Of a stretch of 39,609 bases of DNA, positions 2,484-38,647 are shown one piece after another. Numbering within the stretch: the first letter of the stretch is position 1; each line of letters opens with the position of its first letter. The notes below the pieces were generated by a model. That model was not told the origin of the DNA. It saw only the letters and a program-made list of their open reading frames with translations, and made no database searches. This DNA is from Paracoccaceae bacterium (lineage in GTDB: Bacteria; Pseudomonadota; Alphaproteobacteria; Rhodobacterales; Rhodobacteraceae). A program made the position numbers and the translations under genes. The stretch covers positions 1-39,609 of the forward strand of contig JAPORQ010000068.1 of the NCBI GenBank assembly GCA_026710155.1, read 5' to 3'.

Positions 2484-3071
2484 ATGACTTGTACGAAATA
2501 CAGATTGGTTGGATTGCTGGGAGGCTCTTTCAATCCTGCTCACCAAGGGCACATACACATTTCCAATCTGGCTCTCAAGTTGTTTGGATTGGATGAAGTC
2601 TGGTGGCTCGTAAGCCCAGGAAACCCCCTCAAGATTGAGAAACCCGCTTCATTCATGAGACGGTGTGAAAGAGCGCAGTCTATTATTCAAAACCCAAGAA
2701 TAAAGGTCTCTAATTTTGAGTATGAATATGGTATTCACCATACCTTTGAGACAATCAGCAAACTCAATCATCAATACCATGATCACCTCTTTATCTGGTT
2801 GATGGGATCGGATAATCTTGTTCAATTCGATCAATGGAAAAAATGGGACTCGATTTTTCGAAATATTCCCATCGTGGTATTGTCTAGAACAAATTACGAT
2901 ATACCTGGATTGGCATCCAAGGCTGCAACTACCTATTCAAAATTCTATCTTCCAGCAAGGTTTGCCGATAGAATTGCTTATCTTGAGCCACCTGTTTGGA
3001 CGTTGATAAAAATTCCGAAAATTAATATTTCTTCATCTCTGTATCGGGAACAGGGTTTGTGGAATAAATAG
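2484..3071 (+). CDS. nadD: Nicotinate-nucleotide adenylyltransferase
   Basis: 195 residues. This cytoplasmic enzyme joins nicotinate mononucleotide to ATP to give deamido-NAD in NAD biosynthesis. The N-terminus carries the nucleotidyltransferase signature GGSFNPAHQGH (residues about 14-24, the HxGH-type site). The C-terminus carries ISSSLYR, the counterpart of the ISSTxxR motif. LMGSDNL in the middle is also typical of NadD. Length matches short alphaproteobacterial NadD proteins. The ATG at 2484 places the signature at the expected distance; the ribosome site upstream is weak. In many alphaproteobacteria nadD sits beside proA and rsfS. Here it stands alone between mobile-element relics and the Dnd cluster, so the neighbourhood has been rearranged. 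Confidence 0.93.
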   Translation: MTCTKYRLVGLLGGSFNPAHQGHIHISNLALKLFGLDEVWWLVSPGNPLKIEKPASFMRRCERAQSIIQNPRIKVSNFEYEYGIHHTFETISKLNHQYHDHLFIWLMGSDNLVQFDQWKKWDSIFRNIPIVVLSRTNYDIPGLASKAATTYSKFYLPARFADRIAYLEPPVWTLIKIPKINISSSLYREQGLWNK

Positions 3072-3583
3072 TATATGAGTTCAAATCTATCTTATCAGGG
3101 AAATGATTCATGGCCTGTCCCATCAACAAGGGGCCTAAGGAATGTACCAAACGGAGTTGATGACCATGTTTAACTGCAATCATTATTCTTCTCCTGAAAA
3201 ATTTCAAATTTCGGCCAACTGCTGCTTACCCACCTGATAATGGGGTTATGGTTTTTTCGAATATGGCAATATCAACTGCCAAAGGGCTCATTCATGTCAA
3301 AATCATCGCATTTATGTTGGACAGAATTAACTCTGAGGCAAGGAAGTCTGAATTTAATTTGCTTGAAATTTTGATAATATACAAATATTAGATGATCTGT
3401 ACTAAGACCAGTGGAATTTGGAGCAGAGCAATATTGAGAAGTGAGTTTTGCAAAATCTTGGATACGATCGCTTAATTCCTCTTATGGAAGGTATATTTAT
3501 TCACTTACCTCAAACATTTTTTCAAAAAAAATACCAATGGGATACTTTTATTGTTTATGAATGTAGTTATAAGGTGAAATATT
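3072..3583. other. Intergenic region upstream of the Dnd cluster
   Basis: About 510 bases without a convincing gene; the only ORFs are short and have no protein-like character. The region is very AT-rich and must carry the promoter of the Dnd operon if that operon is transcribed as a unit. I see no clear inverted repeat that could be assigned as a DndB operator. Confidence 0.4.
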
Positions 3584-4834
3584 ATGCCTTTTGAAGGAGA
3601 GTTTTCAAATAATTCATATGATATCCCAATAGATAATAACTTATCTAAGTCAAATGAAATTTGGAAACAATCATACTTTGATAATCCTAATATTCCTGAT
3701 TCAGATAACAATTTATTTCATATCAGACAAGAAGTAAGAGATGAATATGCAGAACCGCACGAAAAGCCTTGGATTATAGGATATTCAGGTGGTAAGGATA
3801 GTACGTTAGTGCTACACCTTGTAATAGAACATCTTGTTTCTTTACCACGTAGTGAGAGAGTACGGCCTATCCATGTGGTGGCTAATGATACTCTTGTCGA
3901 AAGCCCGCTAGTTATGGCACATGTCAAGAGTGTACTAAATGAGATTAAGAAAGCGGTTTTGGCATTTGATCTACCAATTATAGTAAATATAACTTCACCA
4001 GATATTGATCAGACTTTTTGGGTCAATCTTATCGGCCGAGGCTATCCTACACCAAATCGCAATTTTCGTTGGTGTACTGATCGAATGAAGATAAGGCCAA
4101 CTAGTACCTATATCCGTGAGCAAGCCAAAATTTCTGGTGAAGTAATACTTTTACTAGGGGTTAGGAGAAATGAAAGCCGTGCTCGAGCTACCACTGCGGC
4201 AAGGTATGACAATGGTTCTCGCTTGAACCAGCACAATAGTCTTCCTGGATGCAATGTATTTCGTCCCATACTTGAACTTGAAACTGAAGACGTCTGGGAA
4301 TTTCTTGCATTGAACAAACCGCCATGGGGAGGAAGCCATCAACGATTGATTCAGCTATATAGGGAAGCTGGGGGTGGGGAATGTCCAGTTGTGACATCTT
4401 TACAGGATGCTCCTTCATGTGGAACAACATCATCACGTTTTGGGTGTTGGACATGTACAGTTGTTGAAAAAGATAAGAGTCTTACTGGGTTTGTTGACTC
4501 CGGTTTCGAACAATTTTTACCTTTATTAAATTTTAGAGACTGGCTAATCGAAATTCGAAACGATCCAGAGCGTCGCCTTGCTAGGCGTAGGAATGGACAA
4601 GTTACAATTACAAATAAAGGAATATTTGTACCTGGGCCATTTAATATGTCCACTAGGCATGAAATTCTAGATCGTTTATTGGAACTTCAAACTCAATCAA
4701 AAATGGATTTAATCAAACAAACTGAAATTGATCGAATTCGTGAATTATGGATCGAAGATGTTATTGTCAGTGCTGAACGAAATTTAAAAGTTCAACGATC
4801 ATTGGGAGCAGAAGTGAATCATGCCAAACGGTAA
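3584..4834 (+). CDS. dndC: DndC, PP-loop ATPase of DNA phosphorothioation
   Basis: 416 residues. DndC belongs to the PAPS-reductase/PP-loop ATPase family. It activates the DNA backbone and, with an Fe-S cluster, passes sulfur to it. The PP-loop YSGGKDST lies near residues 68-75, followed by the family segment FRWCTDRMK (about 160-168) and LLLGVRRNESRARA (about 190-203). A cysteine group suited to a 4Fe-4S cluster is spread over about residues 265-291 (GECPVV, SCGTT, GCWTC). The start at 3584 leaves an N-terminal extension of about 65 residues before the PP-loop. The 3' end overlaps the next ORF by 14 bases, so translation is probably coupled. Codon use is strongly AT-biased like the rest of the cluster, in keeping with horizontal transfer. 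Confidence 0.93.
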   Translation: MPFEGEFSNNSYDIPIDNNLSKSNEIWKQSYFDNPNIPDSDNNLFHIRQEVRDEYAEPHEKPWIIGYSGGKDSTLVLHLVIEHLVSLPRSERVRPIHVVANDTLVESPLVMAHVKSVLNEIKKAVLAFDLPIIVNITSPDIDQTFWVNLIGRGYPTPNRNFRWCTDRMKIRPTSTYIREQAKISGEVILLLGVRRNESRARATTAARYDNGSRLNQHNSLPGCNVFRPILELETEDVWEFLALNKPPWGGSHQRLIQLYREAGGGECPVVTSLQDAPSCGTTSSRFGCWTCTVVEKDKSLTGFVDSGFEQFLPLLNFRDWLIEIRNDPERRLARRRNGQVTITNKGIFVPGPFNMSTRHEILDRLLELQTQSKMDLIKQTEIDRIRELWIEDVIVSAERNLKVQRSLGAEVNHAKR

Positions 4835-5024
4835 AGTTGTACTTTTTCACAGTGAAGAAGGACAAAAACTAATCAATTATAAGTGTAAGTCAGCGAAACT
4901 GGATTCAAGTGTTCTAAAGCAACTAATTGCTGTTGAAATAGAACAGCAAGGCAAACTTAAAAAAAGGGGAATTACAGAATCCTTCAATGAAATATTTAAT
5001 AGTATTGAAATAGAGATTGACTAA
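4821..5024 (+). CDS. Small Dnd-associated protein of unknown function
   Basis: 67 residues, starting inside the end of dndC and ending 2 bases before dndD. The sequence is charged: a possible beta hairpin at the N-terminus (KVVLFHSEEGQKLI), then helices rich in lysine and glutamate (VLKQLIAVEIEQQG). It has no metal, nucleotide or membrane motif. Its place between two core genes and its tight spacing argue that it is a real, co-translated gene. It is not DndE, because the DndE fold is found in the 7104-8651 product. I recall public annotations of short proteins tied to DNA-modification systems, but cannot match this one from memory. A role as adaptor between DndC and DndD is a guess. Confidence 0.65.
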   Translation: MPNGKVVLFHSEEGQKLINYKCKSAKLDSSVLKQLIAVEIEQQGKLKKRGITESFNEIFNSIEIEID

Positions 5025-5026
5025 TT

Positions 5027-7102
5027 ATGCATCTCCGTTCGGTTGAACTGATCAATTGGCGTTCATATAGGCACGCTCGTTTTAACTTTCCGACACCTTA
5101 TAGGGAAAGAAATGTTATACTAATTAAAGCACCGAATGAATACGGCAAAACCTCTTTCTTTGAAGCAATTGCCCTTGGAATATTTGGTCGAGAAGGCCTC
5201 GTTCTTGTACCTCGTGCCAAAGCTTCTTTGCATGGGAATGCTGATGAAGTAATCAATACGAGCTATAGCCAGTTCCTCGCAAACACTCTTCATTATAGAG
5301 CAATTGATATTGGTCTAGCAAAATGTTCTGTAACAATTGAAGTTGAAGATGATAACGGATATCCCATAGAACTATCAAGGATTTGGCATTTTCGTAAGAA
5401 TGGTCAGCACAAACCCAGTGATGATAATCTCACAATATTCCAAGGAATAGAAAGAGAACCTGTAACACCACCATCAGGAATTACAAATCGAGACCAATGG
5501 TATAGCGATTGGATTGCACAAAATTTTCTTCATCCGAGTTTGGCAGAGTTTTTTCTGTTTGATGGAGAACAAGTGCAGAGATATGCAAATCGTGAAATGA
5601 GTGAACAGGTTCGAAAAGGAATAGAAGGTTTGTTAGGTTTTCCTATTTTGAAGAGCCTTAAGGATTCTCTTGCTACGTACGCTCAAAATCAACGCTTATC
5701 AGCTGCTGCGCCCTCTGATAAGGTTGTAGATCAGGTAAAACAGGACATTGGTAGGATTTTAGAACAAAAAACAAAAAAGGAACAAATTTGTGACGAAGCT
5801 TCAATGGCAATACCCAAACTACAAGAAGAAATTGATGAAATAACCAAAATTATTGGAAGTCGTGGGGAAGGAACACAAGCATTATTACAAAAATTAATAC
5901 AAGATGAAGGCCGATATCGGGAAGAGGCAAGACGTTCATTTGAATCACTAATGGTACTCATCCAAAAAGATGTTGCTTTGGCTTTAGCTGGTCATAAGCT
6001 AAGGGAGCATACAATAAATAGGCTGGAAGAAGAAAAGATACTTGAAAAATGGGAAGCAGGAAAAAACGAAGGTGCTTTGAATTTTAATAGGTTTAGTAAA
6101 GATTTTTTACATCGTATTTCTACTCTTGATCCACCACTTGATAAAATTCGTCTTCAAAAAATAATCAAAGCAGGCGAGGAAGCTTGGGAAGCCTTATGGT
6201 ATCCTGTCCCCAATGGATGTGCTGAAAATTTCAGACACCCATACCTTAAAGGAACAAGCCGACAACGTACTATAGATTTTTTACAATCTATAGCGAATCA
6301 CAGCGAAGGAGAAGTCAAAGAAAAGGCAGAGCGTTTTAATTTAGCAATGGAAAACGCAGAGAACTCAAAAAGAGAATGGCAAGAACTTGAAACATCAATA
6401 CCTGAAATAGAAAAATATACACAAAAGTTGAAAGAATTATCTGAACAATTAGGCAAATTAACATCAGAGAGAAATGAGGCAAATTTTGGCTTGGAAGGAT
6501 TAAATACAGAACTTGGTAAAAAGCGGGCAGAATTTGGCCGATACATCGAAAGAAAGGGAACAAGTCGTCCTGCACTTAGACGTGCCAACTTCGCAGATAA
6601 ATACTCTACCCTAATCCAAGAACTACTCCAAGAAGCTCTACCTAGGGAAGTGGGAGGGGTTGCCCAAGAGATGACAAGAGTTTGGAAAGCAATGGCCCAC
6701 CATTCAAATCGTGTTGACAAAATTGAGATCACCCCAGAATGTGAAGTAAAAATGCTTACTGTAAATGGAGAGGATTTGCATGTAATTGACAAGTCTGCCG
6801 GCGCTAGTCAGGTGTTTACCCAAGCTCTGATTACAGCAATTACAAAGGTCAGTGGTCGAGCCTTTCCTTTTGTAGTTGATACCCCTTTGGCACGGTTAAG
6901 TCGTGAACAAAGAATAGGTGTTTTAAAGACTTTTACTGATAGAACAGGGCAAGTAATCCTATTATCAACAGATGAAGAAGTAATTGGTGATAAAGTAGAT
7001 GCCATAAGAGACCGTTTGTTAGTTGGATTTGAGTTAAAAATTTCAACGAGTAATGGAATAGCAGTAACACAGGTTCAAAACCTTGATCTAGAGGATATTT
7101 GA
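5027..7102 (+). CDS. dndD: DndD, SMC/Rad50-like ATPase of DNA phosphorothioation
   Basis: 691 residues with an SMC/RecF layout. An N-terminal ATPase half begins LINWRSYRHARFNFP and has the nucleotide loop APNEYGKTS (about residues 35-43). A long charged coiled-coil region spans roughly residues 225-520. The C-terminal half has the ABC-type signature KSAGASQ (about 588-594) and Walker B FPFVVDTPLARLS (about 613-625). The first glycine of the classical Walker A is replaced by alanine, while GKT is intact. The segment FFLFDGEQVQRY near residue 183 is typical of DndD proteins. DndD is thought to supply ATP-driven DNA remodelling or nicking during sulfur insertion. The gene is packed 2 bases after the small ORF and 1 base before dndE. 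Confidence 0.92.
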   Translation: MHLRSVELINWRSYRHARFNFPTPYRERNVILIKAPNEYGKTSFFEAIALGIFGREGLVLVPRAKASLHGNADEVINTSYSQFLANTLHYRAIDIGLAKCSVTIEVEDDNGYPIELSRIWHFRKNGQHKPSDDNLTIFQGIEREPVTPPSGITNRDQWYSDWIAQNFLHPSLAEFFLFDGEQVQRYANREMSEQVRKGIEGLLGFPILKSLKDSLATYAQNQRLSAAAPSDKVVDQVKQDIGRILEQKTKKEQICDEASMAIPKLQEEIDEITKIIGSRGEGTQALLQKLIQDEGRYREEARRSFESLMVLIQKDVALALAGHKLREHTINRLEEEKILEKWEAGKNEGALNFNRFSKDFLHRISTLDPPLDKIRLQKIIKAGEEAWEALWYPVPNGCAENFRHPYLKGTSRQRTIDFLQSIANHSEGEVKEKAERFNLAMENAENSKREWQELETSIPEIEKYTQKLKELSEQLGKLTSERNEANFGLEGLNTELGKKRAEFGRYIERKGTSRPALRRANFADKYSTLIQELLQEALPREVGGVAQEMTRVWKAMAHHSNRVDKIEITPECEVKMLTVNGEDLHVIDKSAGASQVFTQALITAITKVSGRAFPFVVDTPLARLSREQRIGVLKTFTDRTGQVILLSTDEEVIGDKVDAIRDRLLVGFELKISTSNGIAVTQVQNLDLEDI

Positions 7103-7103
7103 A

Positions 7104-8651
7104 ATGGTTATTGAACTATCTGACCTTTTTACAACAACGTTTAGAACCACTAGAAAAGCTGATCAATTTTGTGAATATCTTGCAAGACAATTAGGTTGGA
7201 AGCACCGATATGTTGCTGCTCGCTTAGCGATTGGAAGATCGTTGTCATTAACTGACCAACCTAAAGAATTACTTCAACAAGAATATGAGGACATGGCGAC
7301 TCCCCTACGGGGAACTCAACTACTCGGTGAGAATTCGCAGGCTGCAGGATGGTTGGCTCTAATTTTAGAGCATTCAGAATTAACAGAAATATCTAAGAGG
7401 GAGTTGCAAAATTTAGTTTCGCGTCATTGGCACAGGGGAGCATTCCTTTTGAAAAAGGATTGGGAAGACAGTGGTGAGAAAATGGAAAATTTTGTATCTC
7501 GATTGACTGAACTTGCCAGTTTTTCAGGTGATGGAGGCAAATACCAAGATTTAGATTCAGATAACTTAAATTTTGTTTTTAGAGGAGAAGTAAAAATTCC
7601 AATTGGAGAGGTTTCAATTGATACCCATACAAAAAAGGAAGTCAGATTTTCTGTAAATGGTGCTGGTGGTAGTCCACACATGGCAATAATGGGTGGGGTA
7701 GGGTCTGGTAAAACTAGAACAGCAGTAAATATGTTACATTCAATACGGAAACAAAGTAATGAACTTCCCTTCCTAGCATTTGATTTCAAGAAAGACTTAA
7801 TTGATCCATTTACTAATACCTTTGGAACAACCTTAATTTCGCCACCGCGTAGCCCAGTTCCTTTGGATGTACTACATGTTTTTTCAGATGATGATACATT
7901 AATTAAAACGACTTCTGCACGCATTCGAGATTCAATTATTGCAGTTAAATCTAGCAAACATAGTGGAGTTCAATCAGAAGCATTGCGTGAAGCAATTACT
8001 TCAGTGCTTAGAAATCGTATTGACGGTGCTTCAGGAACTCTAATCGATATTAGTAAGGCACTTGAAATGGAGTATGAGGAACGTGGACGTAAGCCAGATG
8101 AATTAACTTCGACTTTAAATGAATTAACCCAATTCTCTCTTTTCAGTCCTGAATATTCTCCAGCTGAATTCTTTTCAAGAAGTTGGTTGATTCAGTTACC
8201 TCAAGATGGGTCTGCTGAAATGAGACGGCTAATTATAAATCTAACTCTGGATGCTCTAGATAGATGGATTAACTCTCAACCAGATTCACCTAGAGATGAA
8301 AATGGTGTAAGATATTTGCGCCATTTAACAATGTTAGATGAAGCCCATGTAATACTGTCAACCCGACTTCCAGCCTTAGCCAATCTTGTAAGAATGAGTC
8401 GGTCCAAAGGTGGATCAATAATGTTAGTATCACAATCTCCTGATGATTTTGAATTTAATCAAGACGGCTACCTTGACAATATGGGTTTAACTTTAGCCTT
8501 TAGTACCCAAGCCAAACCAGGCCCAACAAAGCGTATATTTGGTAATAATTCTCCACTTACTAGTCTTCAAGTTGGTGAAGCCTTTTGTAGAATCAGAGCT
8601 GAAGCAACCACAAAAAAAATTCTGTGCTGGAAAAAACACATTGATCTTTAA
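7104..8651 (+). CDS. dndE: DndE fused to a HerA/FtsK-like ATPase
   Basis: 515 residues against about 110-130 for stand-alone DndE. Residues 1 to about 120 match the DndE (DUF1832) pattern: FRTTRKADQFCEYLARQLG, RYVAARLAIGRSLSL, then RGTQLLGENSQ and HWHRGAFLL. The rest is a P-loop ATPase of the HerA/FtsK/VirB4 type: a strand-rich lead-in, Walker A GGVGSGKT (about 197-204), LAFDFKKDL, Walker B LTMLDEAHVIL (about 406-416), and VSQSPDDFE (about 441-449) followed by LAFSTQAKP. DndE binds nicked DNA in the DndCDE complex. The fusion suggests a motor built into the modification complex. I believe such fusions occur in some archaeal and bacterial Dnd loci, but cannot confirm how common they are. Confidence 0.82.
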   Translation: MVIELSDLFTTTFRTTRKADQFCEYLARQLGWKHRYVAARLAIGRSLSLTDQPKELLQQEYEDMATPLRGTQLLGENSQAAGWLALILEHSELTEISKRELQNLVSRHWHRGAFLLKKDWEDSGEKMENFVSRLTELASFSGDGGKYQDLDSDNLNFVFRGEVKIPIGEVSIDTHTKKEVRFSVNGAGGSPHMAIMGGVGSGKTRTAVNMLHSIRKQSNELPFLAFDFKKDLIDPFTNTFGTTLISPPRSPVPLDVLHVFSDDDTLIKTTSARIRDSIIAVKSSKHSGVQSEALREAITSVLRNRIDGASGTLIDISKALEMEYEERGRKPDELTSTLNELTQFSLFSPEYSPAEFFSRSWLIQLPQDGSAEMRRLIINLTLDALDRWINSQPDSPRDENGVRYLRHLTMLDEAHVILSTRLPALANLVRMSRSKGGSIMLVSQSPDDFEFNQDGYLDNMGLTLAFSTQAKPGPTKRIFGNNSPLTSLQVGEAFCRIRAEATTKKILCWKKHIDL

Positions 8652-8897
8652 TAGAAGATAATTGGTTATTATTTTCGTTTAAATTTTTTTGGGTTTTTAT
8701 AAACTAGTATCTCAACATTTTTGGAATGATGGTTATGGTGTAATTGACACGCCTTACACGCAGATATCCAATGATAACAGAAACAAAACATCAGGATCAG
8801 TTTATTTTCAGTTATTTAATTCGAGTAACAGCCTCTGCATGAAATCGTTACCCATCATTTCAATAATTTTGAGATACTAGCCATTAGCGGAGTTAAT

Positions 8898-9383
8898 TTG
8901 GCACTAGATGCTTTCTTGGAAAAATTAGGATCGGAAGAGTTGAGAATTGTTAGATTACAGCTTAATCCGTCTAGATGGAAAAAGTATTGTGACGAATACA
9001 AACATAATTGGAATTTTACACCTTTTGAACCAAATAGGGTCAATCAAATTCCTGAAAAACCAGGCTTATACTGCTTTTATATTGGGCATGACTTAAAGTG
9101 TTTACCTAGGATTGGATTATCTTTATACGGAGGGATAACTACACGTACCCTAAAAATTCGTTTTAAGGAGTATCTTAATGAAAAAGATAATGATAAAGGC
9201 CGAATTACAGTAAAAAAATTTCTTAATGTATTTGATGGCGAATTATCATTTGGGTGGGTTGTAGTAGAAAATACTTCGATACTAAGCCAATTAGAAAAAG
9301 ATTTTAACGATGCTATGATGCCACCTTACAGTATTAAGGATTACTCAGCAATAGTTCGTAGTGAAAGAAACGCATGGCAATAA
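8898..9383 (+). CDS. GIY-YIG nuclease-like protein in the Dnd cluster
   Basis: 161 residues. The likely start is TTG at 8898, preceded by GGAG at 8889-8892; ATG 8907 is the alternative. From residue about 53, PGLYCFYIG gives a GIY-like strand, LYGGITTRT a YIG-like strand, and RFKEYLNE the following helix with arginine and tyrosine. SQLEKDFNDAMMPPYS supplies the downstream glutamate. That order fits the GIY-YIG fold, although the final asparagine is not clear. The N-terminal 50 residues form a separate helical part. The gene lies 246 bases after dndE and overlaps dndB by 10 bases, so it belongs with dndB. It could be the nuclease effector of the system, or a DNA-binding protein that has lost catalysis. 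Confidence 0.6.
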   Translation: MALDAFLEKLGSEELRIVRLQLNPSRWKKYCDEYKHNWNFTPFEPNRVNQIPEKPGLYCFYIGHDLKCLPRIGLSLYGGITTRTLKIRFKEYLNEKDNDKGRITVKKFLNVFDGELSFGWVVVENTSILSQLEKDFNDAMMPPYSIKDYSAIVRSERNAWQ

Positions 9384-10651
9384 ATAGACCAATATTATTA
9401 CCTGCTCTTCAGGCAAATTTTGGTGATTGGGTGTATTATTCGGTTATAATGCCACTCTCTGAAGTCAAAGAACGTATAAGCTTTGCTCGTGAAATCCATA
9501 AAAATAACCGGTTGGGTAAGTTGATACAAAGACAACTACAAGATTATGGTGCTGGAAGGTTTAATAGAGCAAATCAAATTGCTCAATACTTAACTTCCAA
9601 CGAAGCGCGTTTTTTTAATTCGATAGTTGTTGGTATTTACGGGGGGAACCCTTTGTGGCATCCTTTCAAGGTTGAACCACATACAAATTTTAGTAAACAG
9701 AAGCTCGATTATCTTGAAGCAACAGATAGAGTTGGTTTTCTTGAACTCCAAGGTACAGAACAAATGTTTGCTCTTGATGGTCAACATCGTGTTGCAGGTA
9801 TCAAAAAGGCATTTGGTTCGGATGAGGCTAGAAAAAATGATTATTTAACAGTTTTATTCGTACCACACCAAAATTCGCCTGAAGGTCTTCAAAGGACTCG
9901 ACGTCTATTTGTTGATCTGAATAAACATTCTATCCCTGTAGGTAAGAAAGATATAATAATTCTAGATGAGGTAGATCTGGCTGCAATTCTTGCTAGAAGA
10001 TTGGTTGATGAACATGATTGGTTTTCAAGAGGTCAGGTCGATATAGAACGTTTTACGGATGCCATACCAAAAAATTCCTCATCATTGTTTTCTATTGCTA
10101 CTCTATATAAAATAATTAGTATCTTATTTTCCTATGTTTTGGCCACAAACAAAGAAGAGCGTGATGAACTCAAAGAAGCAAAAACAATTCGACTTTCGGA
10201 ACAAAGGATAGATCATTATTATAAGCGGGTTAGTATTTATTTTGAAGGCCTAAGCGAAATTGACTCCCAACTTAAAAATTATCTCCAACGGGGCCCCAAT
10301 TCTGGGATTGCTGAATCTGCACGAACTCCAGAAGTTTGTAATATTCTCTTTCGACCAGTTGGGCAAATTGTGTTTGCTGAAACAATTGCAGATTTAGCAT
10401 TAAGAAGGGGTTTGGAATTTGCTTTGAGATCAGCCCAGTATTTTCCTACCGATATGAAACAAACACCTTTTGTCCATATAATTTGGGATCTAGGTCAAAA
10501 TAAAATAATATCAAAAAATCGTGTACTCGCAACTAATCTTTTGAAGTATATGTGTGGGAATGTATCAGAAAAAGATAAACTTCTTCAAAGATATAGATCG
10601 GTTATAGGAAGTGAAAATGTAGAGCTTCCGAAACAACTTACACTCAAATAG
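9374..10651 (+). CDS. dndB: DndB, DGQHR-domain protein
   Basis: 425 residues. The DGQHR signature (FALDGQHRVAGIKKA) sits near residues 131-145, in the usual position of DndB/DGQHR proteins. Supporting features are the preceding FLELQGTE strand and the downstream LFVDLNKHSIPVGKKD. DndB binds DNA and represses or tunes the other dnd genes in studied bacteria. It is often encoded at the head of the operon, but here it is last. The start ATG at 9374 overlaps the end of the GIY-YIG-like gene, so the two are probably translated together. A short C-run and A-run follow the stop without a clear hairpin. DGQHR proteins also occur in other defence systems, so the DndB name rests mainly on context. Confidence 0.85.
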   Translation: MAINRPILLPALQANFGDWVYYSVIMPLSEVKERISFAREIHKNNRLGKLIQRQLQDYGAGRFNRANQIAQYLTSNEARFFNSIVVGIYGGNPLWHPFKVEPHTNFSKQKLDYLEATDRVGFLELQGTEQMFALDGQHRVAGIKKAFGSDEARKNDYLTVLFVPHQNSPEGLQRTRRLFVDLNKHSIPVGKKDIIILDEVDLAAILARRLVDEHDWFSRGQVDIERFTDAIPKNSSSLFSIATLYKIISILFSYVLATNKEERDELKEAKTIRLSEQRIDHYYKRVSIYFEGLSEIDSQLKNYLQRGPNSGIAESARTPEVCNILFRPVGQIVFAETIADLALRRGLEFALRSAQYFPTDMKQTPFVHIIWDLGQNKIISKNRVLATNLLKYMCGNVSEKDKLLQRYRSVIGSENVELPKQLTLK

Positions 10652-10772
10652 CCCCCCCCAAAAAAATTTCTGCTAGATCAATTAAAATGACATTATTCGA
10701 GTAATGCTAAATCTAAAAATCTTCTGTCAATTTAATGAGACACATAACTTATAACTTAACTGTAGAAATTTG

Positions 10773-12359
10773 ATGGGTTATACTCCGCAAGAACTTGACC
10801 AATTAAAGGCTTGGCCATTCGTTGAAGCAAAGAAGCTGTTGAAGCGGATCAACAATGAAACTCCTGACAAGGGTTATGTTTTGTTTCAAACAGGTTACGG
10901 ACCGTCTGGTTTGCCACATATAGGAACCTTTGGGGAAGTAGTACGTACAACCATGGTCAGAAGGGCCTTCCAAGAAATTTCTGATATCCCGACCAAACTA
11001 GTTTGTTTTTCTGATGATTTGGATGGCTTCAGAAAAGTTCCACTGAATGTACCAAATAGAGAAAAGTTAAAGGAAGATCTAGGCTTGCCGTTGACAAAGG
11101 TCACTGATCCTTTTGGGGAGTGTGAGAGCTTCGCCCATTACAATAACCAGAAATTGAGGAGCTTTTTGGACAGTTTTGACTTTGATTACGAATTCATATC
11201 GGCGACCCAATATTATCAATCCGGTAAATTTGATGGAATGCTTATGCTTACCCTTGAGAGATATGATAAATTCATGGACATCATGCTTCCCTCTCTTGGG
11301 GGAATAGCCAAAGGAAGGGACAAAAGCTATTCTCCGTTTCTGCCTATCAGTCCAGTTTCTGGCAAGGTACTGCAGGTTCCGGTTTTGGACAGGAATATAT
11401 CGAAAGGAACTATTCTGTATCAGGAGCCTAATGGGGAGATGATAGAACTCCCTGTAACAGGTGGTAATGTAAAAATGCAATGGAAACCGGATTGGGCCAT
11501 GAGATGGGCTCAATTGGAAGTTGATTATGAAATGTACGGCAAGGATTTAATCCCATCAGCTGAACTTGCAAGAAAACTCTGTCGTGTCTTTGGTAAGCCA
11601 CCGCCCCTTGAGATGTTTTATGAACTGTTTTTGGATGAGAATGGTAGGAAAATTTCCAAATCAAGTGGTGGAGAAGGCATTTCCATGGAGAACTGGATTG
11701 ATTATTCATCACCTGATTCTCTAGGACTATTCATGTTCCAGAAACCAAAAACTGCCAAAAGATTGACCTTTGATGCTGTTCCCCGAGCAGTTGATGATTT
11801 GCAGAAGTTTGTTACCAGTTATCCATCTCAAGGATTGATTGAGCAATTGAACAATCCTGCTTGGCATGTATATGCCGGTAATCCACCTCAGGTTGGAAGT
11901 GATATTTCCTATTCTATGATTTTAAATCTGGTAGGTGCTGCTGGGACAGCAGATGAGGATGTGATTTGGGGTCTCATTCAGAAACATGCCAATATCGCCA
12001 ATCCATCAGACAATCCGGAACTGTACAGAAATCTCAAGGGTACCATCAAGTATTTCAATGAAAGGGTAGCATCGACAAGATACTTGCGAACACCTAATGA
12101 AAAAGAAAGGCTTGCTCTAGAAGAATTAAGGAACAAACTGTTGGAGTGGAAAGGTGGCAATAGTGGCGAGGAATACCAATCAATGATTTATTCAATCGGA
12201 AAGTATCACCAGTTTGATCCATTGAGGTCTTGGTTTGCAGCCTTATACGAAACACTTTTTGGTACCAGCCAAGGGCCTAGATTCGGTAGCTTCATCGCTC
12301 TTTTCGGTGCAAGGAAAACAGCTGATTTGATAACTCAAAGATTGGAAGATACACAATAA
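10773..12359 (+). CDS. lysK: Class I lysyl-tRNA synthetase
   Basis: 528 residues from ATG 10773 (a TTG directly before it is also possible). It charges tRNA-Lys. The protein is the class I (Rossmann-fold) type: the HIGH-like site is GPSGLPHIGTFGE (about residues 44-56) and the KMSKS-like site is GRKISKSSGGEG (about 290-301). It is unrelated to the class II LysS of most bacteria. Class I LysRS is found in archaea, spirochaetes and most alphaproteobacteria, so it is a useful lineage marker. It follows dndB by 120 bases on the same strand but its base composition is closer to the host genes. It is therefore likely the right-hand chromosomal flank of the Dnd cluster. Confidence 0.95.
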   Translation: MGYTPQELDQLKAWPFVEAKKLLKRINNETPDKGYVLFQTGYGPSGLPHIGTFGEVVRTTMVRRAFQEISDIPTKLVCFSDDLDGFRKVPLNVPNREKLKEDLGLPLTKVTDPFGECESFAHYNNQKLRSFLDSFDFDYEFISATQYYQSGKFDGMLMLTLERYDKFMDIMLPSLGGIAKGRDKSYSPFLPISPVSGKVLQVPVLDRNISKGTILYQEPNGEMIELPVTGGNVKMQWKPDWAMRWAQLEVDYEMYGKDLIPSAELARKLCRVFGKPPPLEMFYELFLDENGRKISKSSGGEGISMENWIDYSSPDSLGLFMFQKPKTAKRLTFDAVPRAVDDLQKFVTSYPSQGLIEQLNNPAWHVYAGNPPQVGSDISYSMILNLVGAAGTADEDVIWGLIQKHANIANPSDNPELYRNLKGTIKYFNERVASTRYLRTPNEKERLALEELRNKLLEWKGGNSGEEYQSMIYSIGKYHQFDPLRSWFAALYETLFGTSQGPRFGSFIALFGARKTADLITQRLEDTQ

Positions 12360-12420
12360 CAGGTTGGTGAAAAAGAAGTTTAGAACTGTTGCGACATCAA
12401 ATTTTTCTATGTTAAGTTTA

Positions 12421-12789
12421 GGGGCTTGTAAGGATGGGTTGGCGGATGTGCGCTTTTCCTCCCGTTCCGAACTATCCCACCTGATGGAACCCGGGGATGC
12501 CGCGCATGTCAGGATCGGAACCCGGCTGAATGAAGCCCCCAATGGCAATGACGGGGAAACACCCCGTCATGAATGGAGGCCTGAGTTCCTGTGGCCTCCC
12601 GGCCGGAAAGGAGACATGCCATCCCCCGGCTTCAGCAAACGGTTGCTGAGAGCCTTGGGACAGGTACCCCGTGCGCCGAGGAACGGCGAGAATTGGTGAG
12701 AGGAGGCATGGATTGAGGCAGAACCGGTTTGAATGCTGCCTTGTCAGGCTGGTGGATTGATACGTGGTCAACCCATCTTTATAAGCCCC
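12421..12789. mobile_element. 369-bp MITE-like element with TA target duplication
   Basis: The ends are inverted repeats. The left end reads GGGGCTTGTAAGGATGGGTT. The right end, read on the other strand, is GGGGCTTATAAAGATGGGTT, with 2 mismatches, and the match extends 1 more base. Each end is next to a TA (12419-12420 and 12790-12791), the duplication made by IS630/Tc1-mariner transposases. The interior is clearly more GC-rich than its surroundings and has no credible transposase gene. It holds a 9-bp perfect hairpin (12548-12556 with 12562-12570). This fits a non-autonomous element moved in trans by an IS630-type enzyme. It sits 60 bases past the lysK stop. Confidence 0.75.
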
Positions 12790-13041
12790 TAAAATAAATA
12801 GTATTTCAACCTATCAAAAATAGAACTTATTTATATTCTCTGAGACTCCATTGACTAAATCGAATATATTTTGAACCATAATTATTCTTCAATTTGGAAC
12901 ACAAATCTCGGCTTTGGAACACAAATAATTCAATAAAATGAAAGGTTGATAGTTGCGAGGTACTTAAATGGGATTGTAACGTCTTCGAATCTCTAGTCTC
13001 ACAAACTTTATTACACCATTATCCATTAAGTTTTAGATGTT

Positions 13042-15213
13042 CTATTTCAATGGACTTTTAAATTTTCTTGTACCGGGTTTGCCCGATTTGGACCTTCCAC
13101 GAGCTTGGAGAGCTTCCGAAACCATTTCTTCAACCTTGCTTTGCCTGGCCAGGGGATCATCGGCCAATACCAATTCCACCGTTTCCAGGCGTTTGATTTC
13201 ATCCCTGATTCTGGCAGCGTCCTCAAACTCAAGGTTTTCTGCAGCCTTGTACATTTGTTTACGCAAATCATCCAGATGTACTTGAAGGTTTGCGCCAATT
13301 TTGTGTTTTTCCAAATCAGCTGTAATGCGGTTGGTATCAATATCCGAGGAGTAAACTCCGGCAAATGCATCCGTGATGTTTTTCTGCACCGTTTGAGCCA
13401 CGATACCATGTTCCTCATTGTATTTCTTCTGCTTTTCCCTTCTTCTCTCAGTTTCTGATATTGCTGCTTCCATGGATCTGGTAATTCTATCGGCAAACAT
13501 GATCACCTTACCCTCGGCATTTCTGGATGCTCTGCCTACGGTTTGAATCAAGGAACGTTCGGATCTCAAAAAGCCCTCCTTGTCAGCATCCAGGATAGCA
13601 ACCAGACCACATTCAGGAATATCAAGACCTTCTCTAAGCAGATTGATCCCGACCAGAACATCAAAGGTACCCAACCGCAGGTCTCTGATGATCTCTATCC
13701 GTTCAAGTGTTTCAACATCTGAGTGTAAGTATCTTACCCGTATACCCTGTTCATGAAGGTACTCTGTAAGGTCTTCAGCCATACGTTTTGTAAGGGTTGT
13801 TACCAGAACCCGATATCCTTTTTGGGTAACAATCCTGATTTCTTCCAGGAGTTCATCAACCTGATGGGTAACCGGTCTGACTACAATTTCAGGGTCCAAA
13901 AGCCCGGTTGGGCGTACGATCTGCTCGACAACCACTCCTTCGGTTTTCTGTAGTTCCCAATCTCCGGGGGTTGCCGAAACAAACACGGTTTGGGGTCTGT
14001 AACTTTCCCACTCTTCGAATTTCAAAGGCCTGTTGTCAATACAGGAGGGTAATCGGAATCCATGTTCCGAAAGCGTTGATTTTCTACGAAAATCACCCTT
14101 ATACATTCCTCCCAGTTGGGAAACTGTAACATGTGATTCATCAATGAACATGATTGCCTGTTCCGGCAGATATTCCAGAAGGGTAGGAGGTGGCTCACCC
14201 GGGTTTCTGCCGGTAAGATACCTTGAGTAGTTTTCAATTCCCTTGCATACACCTGCTGCAGTCAGCATTTCCAGATCAAAATTGGTACGCTGTTCCAACC
14301 TCTGGGCTTCCAATAATTTACCAGCCTCGGTCAAATGTGCCAATCTGTGCCGCAACTCCACCTTGACATTTTCTATGGCCTGGAGAATGGTAGGACGAGG
14401 GGTTACATAATGTGAATTGGCATAAACCCTTATCTGATCAAGGTTATCAAAGACCTCCCCGGTCAAGGGATCAAATTCCTGTACCGTTTCGACTTCATCG
14501 CCAAAAAATGACAATCTCCAGGCACGATCCTCATAGTGGGCTGGCCATATTTCAACGATATCACCCCTTACCCTGAAGCAACCCCTTTGAAAAAAAGTAT
14601 CATTACGACGGTATTGTTGCTCAACAAGATTGTTGATGACCTTCCTTTGATCATAGTCATGTCCTGCAATCAGGTCGAGGGACATATCGCTGTAACTTTC
14701 AAACGAGCCAATACCATAAATACAGGACACCGAAGCGACTATGACAACATCATCCTTTTCCAGGAGTGCCCTGGTTGCAGAATGTCGCATGCGATCAATG
14801 TGTTCATTGATCTGTGCTTCCTTCTCGATGTAGGTATCGGTTCTTGGGACATATGCCTCGGGCTGGTAATAATCATAATAGCTGACAAAATATTCGACAG
14901 AATTTTCCGGAAAAAAGGATTTGAACTCACCATAGAGCTGTGCAGCCAACGTTTTGTTCGGGGCAATTACAATAGCAGGTCTTTGCAAGGCCTCAATGAC
15001 CTTGACCATGGTAAAGGTCTTACCTGTTCCGGTTGCACCGAGGAGAACTTGGTTCGTTTCACCTTCAACAATGTTCCGGGTCAATTCCTCAATGGCCTTT
15101 GGCTGGTCGCCAGCTGGCTTGAAATCGGAATGGAGGATAAAAGGTTTACCTCCTTCCAACTTGACGTTTTGCCGATATGGATTTTTCGTAAGTGTAAAGA
15201 TTTCGGAAGTCAT
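13042..15213 (-). CDS. uvrB: Excinuclease ABC subunit B
   Basis: 723 residues. UvrB is the helicase-like damage-verification subunit of nucleotide excision repair; it works with UvrA and then UvrC. Visible features include Walker A GATGTGKT (about residues 58-65), the beta-hairpin region with [15 protein letters not shown], the helicase motif [20 protein letters not shown] and QTVGRASRN. The C-terminal UVR motif ([19 protein letters not shown]) binds UvrC. The protein looks full length, with a basic tail after the UVR motif. No Shine-Dalgarno precedes the ATG. Instead a TATAAT lies 8 bases before it, which could mean a leaderless message. No GTTC-N7-GTTC LexA box is visible upstream. The gene is convergent with lysK. 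Confidence 0.97.
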
Positions 15214-15221
15214 GGGATGAT

Positions 15222-15227
15222 ATTATA
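15222..15227 (-). promoter_or_regulatory. Candidate -10 box of uvrB
   Basis: A perfect TATAAT on the minus strand ends 8 bases before the uvrB ATG. The -35 region at the right distance is poor. If used, transcription would start almost at the ATG and give a leaderless mRNA, consistent with the missing ribosome site. It may be chance in AT-rich DNA. Confidence 0.3.
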
Positions 15228-15388
15228 GGGACTTTGAAGTAAGAGTTAAGGAATTGTAAAATGAAGGTTTAGACAGCTGGCTGTGAATCAATGAGTAAAT
15301 AATTAGGATAATTGTTCAAGTGATTTATTGATTTAACATAAGGTTTTTACTAGATTAAGATTTATTGCATGAATTGTGGGATTTCAGG

Positions 15389-15700
15389 ATGGATGTACTA
15401 ATTTACCAACCTTCAAGGTCCGTAATGCAGTCAGGAACTGCAGGAACCAACAAGTGGGTATTGGAGTTTGTCCATAGTTCCCCACGCAAGAAGGATCCCC
15501 TGATGGGATGGACCAGTTCTGCCGATACCCAGTCCCAGGTAAAGCTTGCTTTCGATACGAAAGAGGAAGCCATTGAATATGCCATCAAAAGAAACCTGAC
15601 CTACAGCGTACAAAACCCCAAGAAAAGAAAGCCGGTAATCAGACCCAGAGGTTATGCCGAAAACTTTGCCTTTGAACGTAAGGCCACCTGGACCCATTGA
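15389..15700 (+). CDS. NDUFS4-like complex I accessory subunit (ETC complex I subunit)
   Basis: 103 residues from ATG 15389; an in-frame TTG at 15365 would add eight residues of poor character. The core matches bacterial relatives of the 18-kDa NDUFS4 subunit: it starts VLIYQPSRSVMQSG, then WVLEFVHS, DPLMGWTSSADTQSQVKL, FDTKEEAIEYA and a terminal RPRGYAENF. In alphaproteobacteria this peripheral protein joins NADH:ubiquinone oxidoreductase on the cytoplasmic side and helps stabilise it. The gene usually stands apart from the nuo operon, as here. It is one of the stronger lineage markers in the window. Confidence 0.9.
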   Translation: MDVLIYQPSRSVMQSGTAGTNKWVLEFVHSSPRKKDPLMGWTSSADTQSQVKLAFDTKEEAIEYAIKRNLTYSVQNPKKRKPVIRPRGYAENFAFERKATWTH

Positions 15701-15766
15701 GCAAAGAATTTTGGTTCGGTAATTTAAGTCCTCCTTACAGATTTTTTATCCACAGCAGATTTGCCG

Positions 15767-17026
15767 ATGAACAATAGTACAAAGGTAGAGAACAGCAACC
15801 TGATCACCCCCATACTCGTTTGTGGATGCTTGATTGTCTGTGTCAGTTTTGCAATCAGGTCTACTTTTGGTGTTTTTCAAATTCCCATTGCCGAGGAGTT
15901 TGGATGGCCCAGAATGGACTTTTCCTTTGCCATAGCCATTCAAAATCTAGCATGGGGAATAGGACAACCATTCTTTGGAGCCCTTGCTGAAAGGATGGGG
16001 GACAGAATTGCCATAATCCTTGGAGCAATAATCTATGCCATCGGATTGGTTTTATCGAGTGTTGCCACGACACCGGAGGCCCATCAATTACTGGAGTTTG
16101 CCGTTGGTCTGGGTATTGCAGGTACTGGTTTTGGTGTTATTCTGGCTGTTGTCGGAAGGGCCAGTTCAGACAAACACCGCTCCATGTCGCTTGGTATTGC
16201 AACGGCAGCGGGTTCTGGGGGACAAATCATAGGCCCGCCAGTAGCAGAATACCTTTTGGGTTTGATGCCATGGCAAACGGTATTTCTGGTTTTTGCCGGT
16301 GCCATTCTTCTGGTCATGGTAACTCTCCCCGTTTTCAAGGGAGACTACAAGGCAACTTCCCAGGAGATGGAAGAAACCATTGCCGGCATTTTAAAGAAAG
16401 CATTTGGTGATCCTTCATTCACACTGATTTTCGTAGGCTTTTTCTCGTGCGGCTACCAATTGGCCTTGATTACAGCGCACTTTCCGGCATTTGTGACCGA
16501 ATTCAGTGAACCGATCGTCAGAGGTGGGTTCATAGATAGCCTTGGCATTTCCACCACCTCATCATTGGGAGCTGTCACTATTTCCCTGATAGGCTTGGCA
16601 AATATCTTTGGTACCTTGGGAGCAGGTTGGTTGGGTACGTATTACTCAAGAAAATGGGTATTGACCATAATTTATACATTAAGGGCAATTTTCACGATTT
16701 TATTCCTGATTCTGCCGTTCACACCCTTCAACATTATCTGGTTCTCCCTTGTAATGGGTTTTTTGTGGCTGGCTACCGTTCCCCTGACCAGCGGCTTGAT
16801 TGGTCATATCTATGGTTTGCGTTACATGGCAACCTTGTACGGAATCATATTCTTTTCCCATCAACTCGGAGGATTCATCGGTGTATGGTTGGGAGGATTT
16901 CTTTATGACCGAACGGGAAACTATGACATGGTTTGGTGGATCGGCGTAGGGGTCGCAACATTTTCAGCCATAGTACATATCCCCATCAACGAAATTCCAT
17001 TGAGCCAGAGATTGCGAGCGAGCTGA
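15767..17026 (+). CDS. MFS transporter, OFA-like
   Basis: 419 residues from ATG 15767 (an in-frame TTG lies two codons earlier). Twelve hydrophobic segments are visible. The first reads CGCLIVCVSFAIRSTFGVF and is followed by EEFGWPRMDFSFAIAI, a pattern common in the oxalate/formate antiporter-like and monocarboxylate-like branch of the major facilitator superfamily. A charged loop near the middle (VFKGDYKATSQEMEETI) separates the two six-helix halves. Substrate cannot be told from sequence; a small organic anion is likely for this branch. It lies 66 bases after the NDUFS4-like gene on the same strand and may be read with it, but there is no functional link. No clear terminator follows. Confidence 0.85.
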   Translation: MNNSTKVENSNLITPILVCGCLIVCVSFAIRSTFGVFQIPIAEEFGWPRMDFSFAIAIQNLAWGIGQPFFGALAERMGDRIAIILGAIIYAIGLVLSSVATTPEAHQLLEFAVGLGIAGTGFGVILAVVGRASSDKHRSMSLGIATAAGSGGQIIGPPVAEYLLGLMPWQTVFLVFAGAILLVMVTLPVFKGDYKATSQEMEETIAGILKKAFGDPSFTLIFVGFFSCGYQLALITAHFPAFVTEFSEPIVRGGFIDSLGISTTSSLGAVTISLIGLANIFGTLGAGWLGTYYSRKWVLTIIYTLRAIFTILFLILPFTPFNIIWFSLVMGFLWLATVPLTSGLIGHIYGLRYMATLYGIIFFSHQLGGFIGVWLGGFLYDRTGNYDMVWWIGVGVATFSAIVHIPINEIPLSQRLRAS

Positions 17027-18799: not shown

Positions 18800-20050
18800 A
18801 TGAATAAGACTGAATTATTGGCGTTGATTGAGAATGGCAAGAATTCGGGCATAGAGTTCAAACGTGATTATCTTCATCCAGAACAATTGGCCAAAGAGAT
18901 TGTAGCCCTTGCCAATTTTAACGGAGGAAAAATTCTTATTGGTGTTGATGATGATGGGATAATCAGTGGTATTCAGCGTGATAATCTGGAGGAATGGGTA
19001 TTTGACACCATTTTCGAGAAAGTTCATCCTATGATAATCCCATCCTATGAGGAGATTCCAATAGATGAACAAACCAGGGTGGCTGTAATTACAGTAGGTC
19101 AGGGTACTACCAAGCCTTATGTAATGCGGGACAGACGCCGCGAAAATATCTATATTCGAGTTGGAACGACATCACGCCTTGCAAGTCGTGAACAACAGGC
19201 ACGATTATACGCCCTAGGGGGGATGGTCCATGCCGAGCTATTGCCGGTATCGGGGAGTGGGTTAGCAGATTTAAGCCAAGACCGCTTGAAACACTATTTG
19301 ATTTCAATTGTGGAAGACAAGGAGCCTCCCATTGAACAAAATGAATGGAATAAGCGCCTTCAGGGATTGGGTTTCATGCATGAATCGGATGGTCATACGC
19401 ATTCTCCTCTGTGTACAATAGCAGGACTTGTACTGTTTGGACATACACCTAGGAGGTTACAGCGTCAGGGTGGTATCAGATGGATGGCATTTCCTGGCAA
19501 GGAAAAGGACTATGGGGCACTTGATGATCAAATTGTTGATGGGCCTTTGGTTGCTTTGCTGAACAACTTTGATGAGGGGAAAACCATATTGGAAAATGGT
19601 CTTTTTGAAAATCTTGTTACATTAATACGACCATTTTTGTCAGAAGAAAAAAAAGAAATAGATGCTTCAATGCGTCGCGAGCGTCATTGGTTCTATCCAG
19701 TAGAAGCGATCCGCGAAGCGCTGGTCAATGCAGTGGCACATCGAGATTGGACTCGAAATGAAGAAATTGAAGTAGTCAGTTATTCAAATAGATTGGAAAT
19801 TATCAGCCCCGGTTCTTTGCCGAATTCCATGACTGTTGAAAAGATGATTGCAGGTCAACGCTCAGCCCGCAATCAATTGATTGTTGAAGTTCTTCGTGAC
19901 TATGGATATGTTGATGCCCGTGGTATGGGAATCCGTAACAAAATCATTCCCCTAACTCGTGCCTATAATGGAAGGGAACCCGAATTCCACGTTACAGAAG
20001 ACTATGTAAAGGTTGTATTCCACAAAGGTGATATTTCCAGGGACGGTTGA
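18800..20050 (+). CDS. AlbA_2/Schlafen-domain putative ATP-binding regulator (COG2865-like)
   Basis: 416 residues. The N-terminal AlbA_2 (Schlafen-type) domain is clear: GIEFKRDYLHPEQLAKEI, then ALANFNGGKILIGVDDDG. A central variable part follows. The C-terminal part is a GHKL-type ATP-binding domain with AIREALVNAVAHRDW, RLEIISPGSLPNSMT and GYVDARGMGIRNKI. Proteins of this build are often annotated as ATP-dependent DNA helicase RecG-like or transcriptional regulators, but they lack helicase motifs. Some Schlafen-type domains act on nucleic acids, and relatives occur in defence regions. The gene stands alone after repeat copy A; the start ATG at 18800 has only a weak ribosome site. Role unproven. 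Confidence 0.85.
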   Translation: MNKTELLALIENGKNSGIEFKRDYLHPEQLAKEIVALANFNGGKILIGVDDDGIISGIQRDNLEEWVFDTIFEKVHPMIIPSYEEIPIDEQTRVAVITVGQGTTKPYVMRDRRRENIYIRVGTTSRLASREQQARLYALGGMVHAELLPVSGSGLADLSQDRLKHYLISIVEDKEPPIEQNEWNKRLQGLGFMHESDGHTHSPLCTIAGLVLFGHTPRRLQRQGGIRWMAFPGKEKDYGALDDQIVDGPLVALLNNFDEGKTILENGLFENLVTLIRPFLSEEKKEIDASMRRERHWFYPVEAIREALVNAVAHRDWTRNEEIEVVSYSNRLEIISPGSLPNSMTVEKMIAGQRSARNQLIVEVLRDYGYVDARGMGIRNKIIPLTRAYNGREPEFHVTEDYVKVVFHKGDISRDG

Positions 20051-31389: not shown

Positions 31390-31828
31390 AGTTGGCTCTT
31401 GGAAAGATATTAATCATAAAACAAGTTAAATATTACCGTTCTTTGAGGAAACCTCAAGCATTAAGCCGGTTTGAGACTGTAGAAAGAGACACCCTAGTCA
31501 ATTGGTATTAATTTTTATTGCTTGTTTGAAACTGAGGTAAATTTTTTGAGAAATTGAGAGAATGAACTAAAAGCTTTTTATTATTGATAAACTTACCTTG
31601 ACCTGATAATGCCATTACCAAAATCAGATAACGAACTTATTTCCTGCCTGGTTTACAAAAAATAAGGTTAGGTTCAAATGAATGGTAATAAATTTACAGA
31701 AAATGTTGTCCAAATTCATGACACAATTTGCTTTTGTCATTTTTTGGCGCAACCTGTAAAAAGTATCTAATCCTTGTGGATCGAAATCAATCAATATCTT
31801 TCTGAATGGTGAATTGATGTCCAATCAG
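31390..31828. other. Intergenic region upstream of two divergent accessory genes
   Basis: AT-rich, about 440 bases. A minus-strand frame of 66 residues (31624-31824) lacks domain features and a ribosome site, and I do not count it as a gene. The promoters of the PD-(D/E)XK-like gene and of the decayed XRE-ImmA gene must lie here. Confidence 0.35.
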
Positions 31829-38446: not shown

Positions 38447-38647
38447 TTAGGAACCCTTGACCAGATGCGTGACACGGCCGACGGCATGGTCGGTCACAAC
38501 CTTCTTCACAGGAACCTTGTCGCCTGCAGCGGGCTTGACAACTCGTTTCGGTAAAAGGGAATTCCTCAACAGGGCCTTGGCCAGAAGCTCGGGGGTTGCC
38601 CCCTTCAGGTCCTTTTCCGGATCGATCATTGGCACGCCTCTGGTCAT
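38447..38647 (-). CDS. Small basic protein downstream of ThaI-type nuclease
   Basis: 66 residues from ATG 38647, which overlaps the ThaI-like stop (ATGA), with GGGAGG just upstream. The N-terminal part has the phrase DPEKDLKGATPELLAKALLRN, a likely helix. The C-terminal part is rich in lysine, arginine and valine (PKRVVKPAAGDKVPVKKVV) and may bind nucleic acid. No known fold can be named. The coupled start and good ribosome site argue for a real gene that belongs to the restriction operon. A controller or accessory role is only a guess. Confidence 0.6.
   Translation of the reverse strand: MTRGVPMIDPEKDLKGATPELLAKALLRNSLLPKRVVKPAAGDKVPVKKVVTDHAVGRVTHLVKGS

Follow-up and report, generated by a model that had tools for sequence, protein, structure and literature searches.

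The closest described relatives of the system considered here mark DNA with phosphorothioate (PT) or read that mark. DndI and SspE each combine, in a single effector protein, an N-terminal DGQQR ATPase/GTPase with a C-terminal HNH nickase; both act in response to PT marks and give protection from phages, and the DGQQR motif is required in both for nucleoside triphosphate (NTP) hydrolysis (PMC11662687, PMC13251355). A fusion of DndE to a HerA-type ATPase, encoded beside a DndD-like ATP-binding cassette (ABC) ATPase, was published in 2024, and such domains were grouped there as HerA/FtsK capture systems (PMC10853773). Here, the subject is a six-gene cluster at positions 3584-10651 of a 39,609-nucleotide (nt) stretch from a Paracoccaceae bacterium (GenBank assembly GCA_026710155.1, contig JAPORQ010000068.1, positions 1 to 39,609, forward strand), the whole of which is called the window. 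Judged from sequence, the cluster is probably (about 0.6) a PT-based defence operon built from two modules, one that marks DNA (3584-8651) and one that is a two-gene restriction arm (8898-10651). The fusion that first catches the eye is, of course, already published; the parts worth following are the identity of a small protein in the first module and the gene pair that occupies the seat of SspE.

All six open reading frames (ORFs) lie on the plus strand where the original prediction placed them, at 3584-4834, 4821-5024, 5027-7102, 7104-8651, 8898-9383 and 9374-10651. That prediction also described the genes as mostly tightly spaced. This is so at four junctions, two of which are overlaps (14 and 10 nt) and two of which leave gaps of 2 and 1 nt, but the remaining one, where the dndE fusion gives way to the next gene, is a gap of 246 nt on the same strand (8652-8897, read from the sequence), which went unmentioned. 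Because of this gap, the cluster is treated as a four-gene block followed by a two-gene block. A promoter inside the gap was considered and ruled out, as promoter-like matches over 3050-10800 stand at chance level (26, versus 24.4 in shuffles). A chance arrangement of the genes is excluded because homologues at two other loci (L015 and L017) keep the six-gene order at 55-77% identity; in L015, the match to the last gene ends at residue 295, near the contig end.

The first gene (3584-4834, plus strand) encodes a PP-loop sulfurtransferase of 416 amino acids (aa) whose assignment to DndC is secure (TIGR03183 375 bits, cut-off 290; PADLOC DndC 7e-122). Its SGGKDS loop and the cysteines of its WCT, ECP, SC(G/S) and FGC..CT motifs are invariant in an alignment of 11 DndCs. 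The protein stops, however, where canonical DndC continues into a C-terminal domain; in the alignment, canonical DndCs extend ~100 residues beyond the point at which DndCs of this type stop.

That domain appears to be encoded by the next gene (4821-5024, plus strand). Its 67-aa product matches the end of the PADLOC DndC models weakly (E 7e-4). When 18 such small proteins were compared with five canonical DndCs using hhalign, residues 14-61 of the small protein aligned on DndC 402-449 (probability 95.2, E 2.6e-8, 48 columns); among the controls, E was 0.015 for the best of 20 column shuffles, 0.11 for the reversed alignment and 0.07-0.33 for three unrelated alignments. The window protein is 66-70% identical to its counterparts at three loci (L015, L016, L017). 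By profile comparison, then, the 67-aa protein is homologous to the C-terminus of DndC, that is, a predicted detached domain. In B7A DndC, residues 433-482 are reported to bind the globular domain of DndD, on the strength of a predicted complex and pull-downs (PMC12193691); in E. coli H240 DndC, the C-terminal domain starts by eye at residue 435 and an LKQDW segment stands at 482, each protein being given in its own numbering. For this system the small protein is accordingly best read as a putative DndD-docking subunit of DndC, instead of as a disordered regulator. The latter label comes from the small protein of CxC systems, which has been described as mostly disordered and as a predicted negative regulator (PMC10853773), and the link between the window's small protein and PbeB-like proteins is weak (probability 29). 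The titles and abstracts found, supplements and subscription papers being outside the scope here and below, do not state a DndC origin for the small protein.

The third gene (5027-7102, plus strand) encodes a 691-aa coiled-coil ABC ATPase of the DndD family, without a CxC hook. The original prediction called it dndD, and the family assignment stands (PADLOC DndD model 1e-64), but the protein scores 192 bits where TIGR03185 asks for 246, and the best PADLOC model is labelled PbeC (5e-198). In a tree of 33 ABC ATPases, the window protein lies within a HerA-fusion clade of 21 rows (support 100/99), five canonical DndDs form a group of their own (100/98), and the Halorubrum PbeC is separate. Only that PbeC has a CxC motif; it is absent from the other 32 of the 33 rows, the window's included. 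Its absence, together with the separate place in the tree, rules out PbeC as the identity of the window protein, despite the label of the best model. Relations among the groups are unsure because several rows outside the HerA-fusion clade sit on long branches. As a side observation, nine of the ten rows of the window's subclade carry the ABC signature SAGAS and the P-loop NE(Y/H)GKT (L024 differs), and the remaining HerA-fusion DndDs carry SAGEK and NG.GKT.

The fourth gene (7104-8651, plus strand) encodes the fusion, a 515-aa protein with DndE at residues ~13-119 and a HerA/DndH-like ATPase at ~160-480. The prediction of a dndE-ATPase fusion is borne out by PF08870, which passes its cut-off (6e-8), and by the HerA-type ATPase that follows (DUF87 1e-5), although the DndE equivalog TIGR03184 reaches 16 of the 72 bits needed. 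PADLOC matches the ATPase part best to mad8 (1e-17) and then to DndH (4e-12), the best PDB match by sequence is DptH (E 0.002), and GSGKT and DEAH are invariant in four fusion rows. With a HerA-type ATPase C-terminal to DndE and a DndD-like gene adjoining, the gene belongs to the fusion family. Over the whole genome, which is 98% complete, one PADLOC DndH model matches, and it matches only the HerA part of this fusion.

The four-gene module recurs. A scan of genome contigs with a four-row alignment returned 36 loci, nearly all in Pseudomonadota by record title, and profile searches found DndC, DndD and the fusion together in 31. In every one of these 31 a small gene lies between DndC and DndD, on one strand (the small-protein model drew rows from 13 of the loci and none from the remaining 18), which rules out a frameshift in dndC as the origin of the 67-aa ORF. 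At six loci (L020, L025, L027, L033, L040, L045), the match to DndC or DndD comes in two pieces. Of the five incomplete loci, three (L018, L041, L042) end at contig ends and two (L043, L046) are without part of the module. Related plasmids show the order dndC - small protein - dndD - dndE::ATPase, and their NCBI annotation gives the small protein a name. The fusion itself was found in one of 101 relatives and in three of 385 genomes of the class, the window's own included. On these comparisons, the cluster is real and is a recurring variant of a known Dnd defence type, not a new type.

This bears directly on the original prediction, which saw in the cluster a possible distinct Dnd subtype, unless its six-gene order proved common and already named. 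The DndD does fall in a separable clade; the fusion, however, was published in 2024 (PMC10853773), the dndC - small protein - dndD - dndE::ATPase order recurs, and NCBI names the small protein. On that count the prediction is partly refuted: the four-gene core is recurrent and its fusion described, but no name was found for this core, and the exact six-gene order was found in two of the 36 related loci. As a separate matter, TusA-like small genes, possibly for a sulfur relay protein, adjoin the four-gene module at six loci; TusA is annotated at two of these (L003, L007), and the other four (L024, L031, L048, L050) clustered with them by BLAST.

The mechanism proposed for the first module (3584-8651) follows from these homologies. 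DndC would transfer sulfur from a desulfurase encoded elsewhere; the cluster holds no cysteine desulfurase, and several PF00266 desulfurase-family proteins are encoded elsewhere in the genome. The DndD-docking domain of DndC would be supplied as a separate 67-aa subunit, the DndD ABC ATPase and DndE would locate the modification site, and PT would presumably enter the DNA there. The HerA ATPase fused to DndE would be an added DNA-translocating motor, which may, and this is a guess, move the modification complex along DNA.

The second module begins with a candidate GIY-YIG-like nuclease of 161 aa, with a TTG start (8898-9383, plus strand), assigned on motif columns and a weak fold match. G56, Y58, Y77, G79, R88 and E133 are invariant in seven of seven aligned members. 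We take these to be the GIY and YIG motifs with the catalytic arginine and glutamate, and their spacing, from YIG to R and from R to E, resembles that of I-TevI. The protein is thus likely, by motif and model, to be a nuclease of GIY-YIG type.

Its partner (9374-10651, plus strand) is a 425-aa DGQHR-domain protein, which the original prediction took for a dndB placed last in the cluster. It does pass the cut-offs of PF14072 (91 bits, cut-off 29; 8e-26) and of the DGQHR domain (TIGR03187, 104 bits, cut-off 59), and PADLOC DndB matches it at 2e-17; it reaches, however, 57 of the 328 bits that the DndB equivalog requires. A tree of 26 DGQHR proteins gives a GIY-paired group containing the window protein (11 rows, support 86/96), a group labelled TM-paired, for transmembrane (8 rows, 100/100), and the canonical DndBs (5 rows, 100/99); the TM label reflects hydrophobicity. 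Because the tree separates GIY-paired DGQHR proteins from canonical DndB, the last gene is read as a DndB paralogue with a partner of its own, one half of a pair with the GIY-like gene, and not as a displaced dndB. The DGQHR motif stands at residues 135-139 of the window protein and is present in all 11 GIY-paired rows. Pfam and NCBIfam/TIGR scans found no DUF262 fused to a DUF1524 HNH domain in the proteins of the pair, a PDB profile search with the DGQHR alignment gave chance-like matches only, and a PHROGs search weak matches only.

The pair was identified at other loci by BLAST and profiles; in the profile survey of the 36 HerA-type loci, the models for GIY, DGQHR and hydrophobic-partner proteins had been built partly from loci that they then marked. 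The pair follows the HerA module at three loci, adjacent in L015 and L017 and ~3.4 kb off in L023. It also stands directly after SspABCD, on the same strand, in Roseobacter litoralis (L053) and in two further genomes (G198, locus L068; G439, locus L069), with no dndB annotated at any of these three loci. A search for DUF262 (SspE-type) gave nothing in G198, nor in Roseobacter, where it covered the 83-kb plasmid, and the one match in G439 lies ~860 kb from the pair; the same model does detect a DUF262 protein beside the Ssp genes of the window's own genome. Rhizobium NXC14 (L051) and Salmonella Infantis SARB27 (L096; the DGQHR match there is spread over two frames) carry the pair next to a dndBCDE operon that keeps a dndB of its own. 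In Rhizobium K1/93 (L052), its neighbours include a large FtsK gene and, on the opposite strand, SspC- and SspD-like genes; in G485 (L070), they include, as read by eye, a CxC-type ATPase, an HKD-helicase-like gene and an ORF that resembles DUF262-DUF1524. It occurs, further, in prophage-like viral contigs (L062-L064), and L065 has a weak GIY match alone (E 5e-4). Going by these neighbourhoods, the last two genes are a mobile two-gene unit of a GIY-YIG-like nuclease and a DGQHR protein; the titles and abstracts found do not mention it.

Sister DGQHR genes are paired with a ~180-aa hydrophobic protein at eight loci (L025, L026, L028, L029 and L039, and also L003, L005 and L007). That all small DGQHR partners form one family was ruled out when a mixed alignment split into a soluble GIY-like set and a hydrophobic set. 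The two kinds of partner point to a possible exchange of effectors.

In the mechanism proposed for the second module (8898-10651), the DGQHR protein, of the ParB superfamily, would sense the modification state and control the small GIY-YIG-like nuclease, presumably through contact between the two. It carries the motif on which SspE and DndI depend for NTP hydrolysis, and the pair would do with two proteins what these do with one DGQQR-HNH protein. The same job is suggested because a DGQHR protein and a small nuclease sit in the gene position of SspE and DndI; by analogy, the pair may be their two-gene counterpart. More tentatively, at somewhat less than even odds, it may be an undescribed, portable PT-reading effector, which takes the place of SspE in some Ssp systems and, in Dnd systems, supplements or replaces DndI or DndFGH. 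As sister DGQHR genes pair with a small hydrophobic, probably membrane, protein, the DGQHR protein would then be a general sensor with exchangeable effectors.

Several observations weigh against this account of the pair. For the nuclease, Pfam GIY-YIG supports one of the seven members (E 0.049) and not the window protein, the support for the original GIY-YIG-like call coming from motif columns and a weak fold match. A PDB profile search gave UvrC at E 0.87 only, behind unrelated chains, and the AlphaFold2 model, from six rows, is modest (predicted local distance difference test 68, predicted template modelling score, pTM, 0.67). Foldseek places T4 endonuclease II, a GIY-YIG enzyme, first with this model at probability 0.96 but E 0.036, and I-TevI at rank 30 (probability 0.25). 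For the DGQHR protein, the broad Pfam DndB family is, after all, matched above its cut-off, the GIY-paired fork is only moderate, with a warning of long branches meeting, and the model (pTM 0.55) has no significant fold match, ParB being top at probability 0.20. As to distribution, the GIY pair is found at three of the 36 HerA-type loci and the hydrophobic-protein pair at five, so that most lack the GIY pair; the GIY family occurs in three of 385 class genomes and the DGQHR subfamily in two of 398 genomes. In G485, the pair lies ~6 kb from the 604-aa ORF read by eye as DUF262-DUF1524, and in the three prophage-like contigs (L062-L064), Dnd and Ssp queries run by tblastn brought up no PT-modification operon within the stretches covered. 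The pair need not, for these last two reasons, replace SspE or require a linked operon.

A second explanation leaves the first module working as proposed. It takes the DGQHR protein for a divergent DndB, acting to repress or tune modification, and the product of the GIY-like gene for a backup suicide nuclease. The homology to DndB just described speaks for it, as do a report of DndB as an ATP-dependent regulator and the presence at Dnd boundaries of URI nucleases, proposed to be backup suicide nucleases (PMC10853773). It is nonetheless unlikely: NXC14 and SARB27 carry the pair in addition to a canonical dndB, the two kinds of DGQHR protein fall in separate clades, and the pair follows SspABCD where no dndB is annotated. 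It is rather improbable, too, that the HerA domain on DndE, with the DndD-like ATPase, itself interferes by blocking or pumping invader DNA, the second module being an independent passenger. Here, the DndH-like HerA domain and the published grouping as capture systems (PMC10853773) are set against the role of DndE as a subunit of the modification complex and against Pfam, PADLOC and NCBIfam/TIGR scans that found no nuclease domain in the fusion; at 28 of the 36 HerA-type loci, the stretch covered contains no DGQHR pair, which favours the passenger, several contigs ending early. A purely DNA-modifying or residual cluster, without any role in defence, is very improbable, since each of the six ORFs is open and conserved in relatives, even if DndABCDE is commonly decoupled from DndFGH, with other nucleases proposed instead (PMC10853773).

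If the two-module reading is taken, two labels are corrected, dndB and the small disordered regulator. In their place are offered a docking subunit of DndC and a nuclease/sensor pair common to Dnd and Ssp systems. Should the pair indeed read PT marks, Dnd and Ssp loci thought to be without a restriction arm may have one.

The cluster lies between nadD (2484-3071, plus strand; PF01467 1e-20, TIGR00482 126 bits, over cut-off) and a class I lysyl-tRNA synthetase gene, lysK (10770-12359, plus strand; NCBIfam lysine--tRNA ligase 740 bits). The original prediction of an AT-rich, acquired island fits the data. GC content is 37.2% in the cluster versus 43.1% in the remaining window, and at third codon positions the GC fraction is 0.23-0.25 in the five larger cluster genes versus 0.41 in nadD and 0.39 in lysK. 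Within the genus, lysK is matched in seven of nine genomes; of the six besides the window's own, three were examined at the site (G005, G006, G008), and in these nadD and lysK are ~1.9 kb apart, with a single gene of 566-569 aa and no dnd match between them. Because these three congeners carry another gene there, the site is variable and the cluster, by this comparison, is an insert acquired by, or swapped into, the nadD-lysK site in this species. The site gene of the congeners (L084, L085, L086) has mad2 as its best PADLOC match; the G008 copy (L084) matches methyltransferase families and, weakly and below cut-off, HNH_4.

The genome probably holds two PT systems, since another contig (C78) carries SspA-, SspB-, SspC- and SspD-like genes and a 778-aa DUF262 (SspE-type) protein, encoded opposite SspB-D (locus L094, C78:113000-132500, at about 7031-15906 of the locus). 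This locus also encodes a protein, GHKL-like by eye (L094:4390-6798), that is 50% identical to one in a viral contig (L062:11587-14028), where it adjoins the GIY/DGQHR pair; the two copies measure 802-813 aa, and the L062 copy has no Pfam match. Elsewhere in the window is a ThaI-type restriction endonuclease (38644-39264, minus strand; PF15514 1e-34). A weak match to VRR-NUC, a gene for an IrrE/M78 peptidase within an AT-rich patch and a gene of AlbA_2/Schlafen type were also noted, at 30031-32685 and 18800-20050.

How, then, does the cluster compare with known systems? With canonical dndBCDE it shares the DndC, DndD and DndE domains, but there the C-terminal domain of DndC is in cis, DndE stands alone and dndB comes first. 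With PbeABCD, the CxC system, it shares a small protein and an ABC ATPase that PADLOC labels PbeC. The cluster, however, has no CxC motif, its ATPase lies apart from the PbeC row of the tree, its small protein is weakly PbeB-like, and none of the six genes matches PbeA (HKD-SF2), the remaining genome not having been searched for PbeA. The clade-3 systems share with it a HerA/FtsK-type ATPase joined to DndE and, next to this fusion, a DndD-like ABC ATPase; the available text, the supplement being outside scope, does not mention a DndC-derived small protein or the GIY/DGQHR pair (PMC10853773).

Operons of R. phaseoli, B. glumae and Aureimonas have the same dndC - small protein - dndD - DndE::ATPase succession. 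In R. phaseoli and Aureimonas, a DGQHR pair of two genes lies nearby and there is a TusA gene; R. phaseoli has a methyltransferase gene as well. The three differ from the cluster in that their ATPase is of FtsK type and any DGQHR partner is hydrophobic, not GIY-YIG-like. In SspABCD-SspE and IscS-DndBCDE-DndI, likewise, a DGQ(H/Q)R NTPase-type protein and a nuclease adjoin the PT modification genes (PMC13251355, PMC11662687, PMC9646914). The window pair differs from SspE and DndI in being two genes and not one, with a putative GIY-YIG-like nuclease in place of the HNH (DUF1524) domain.

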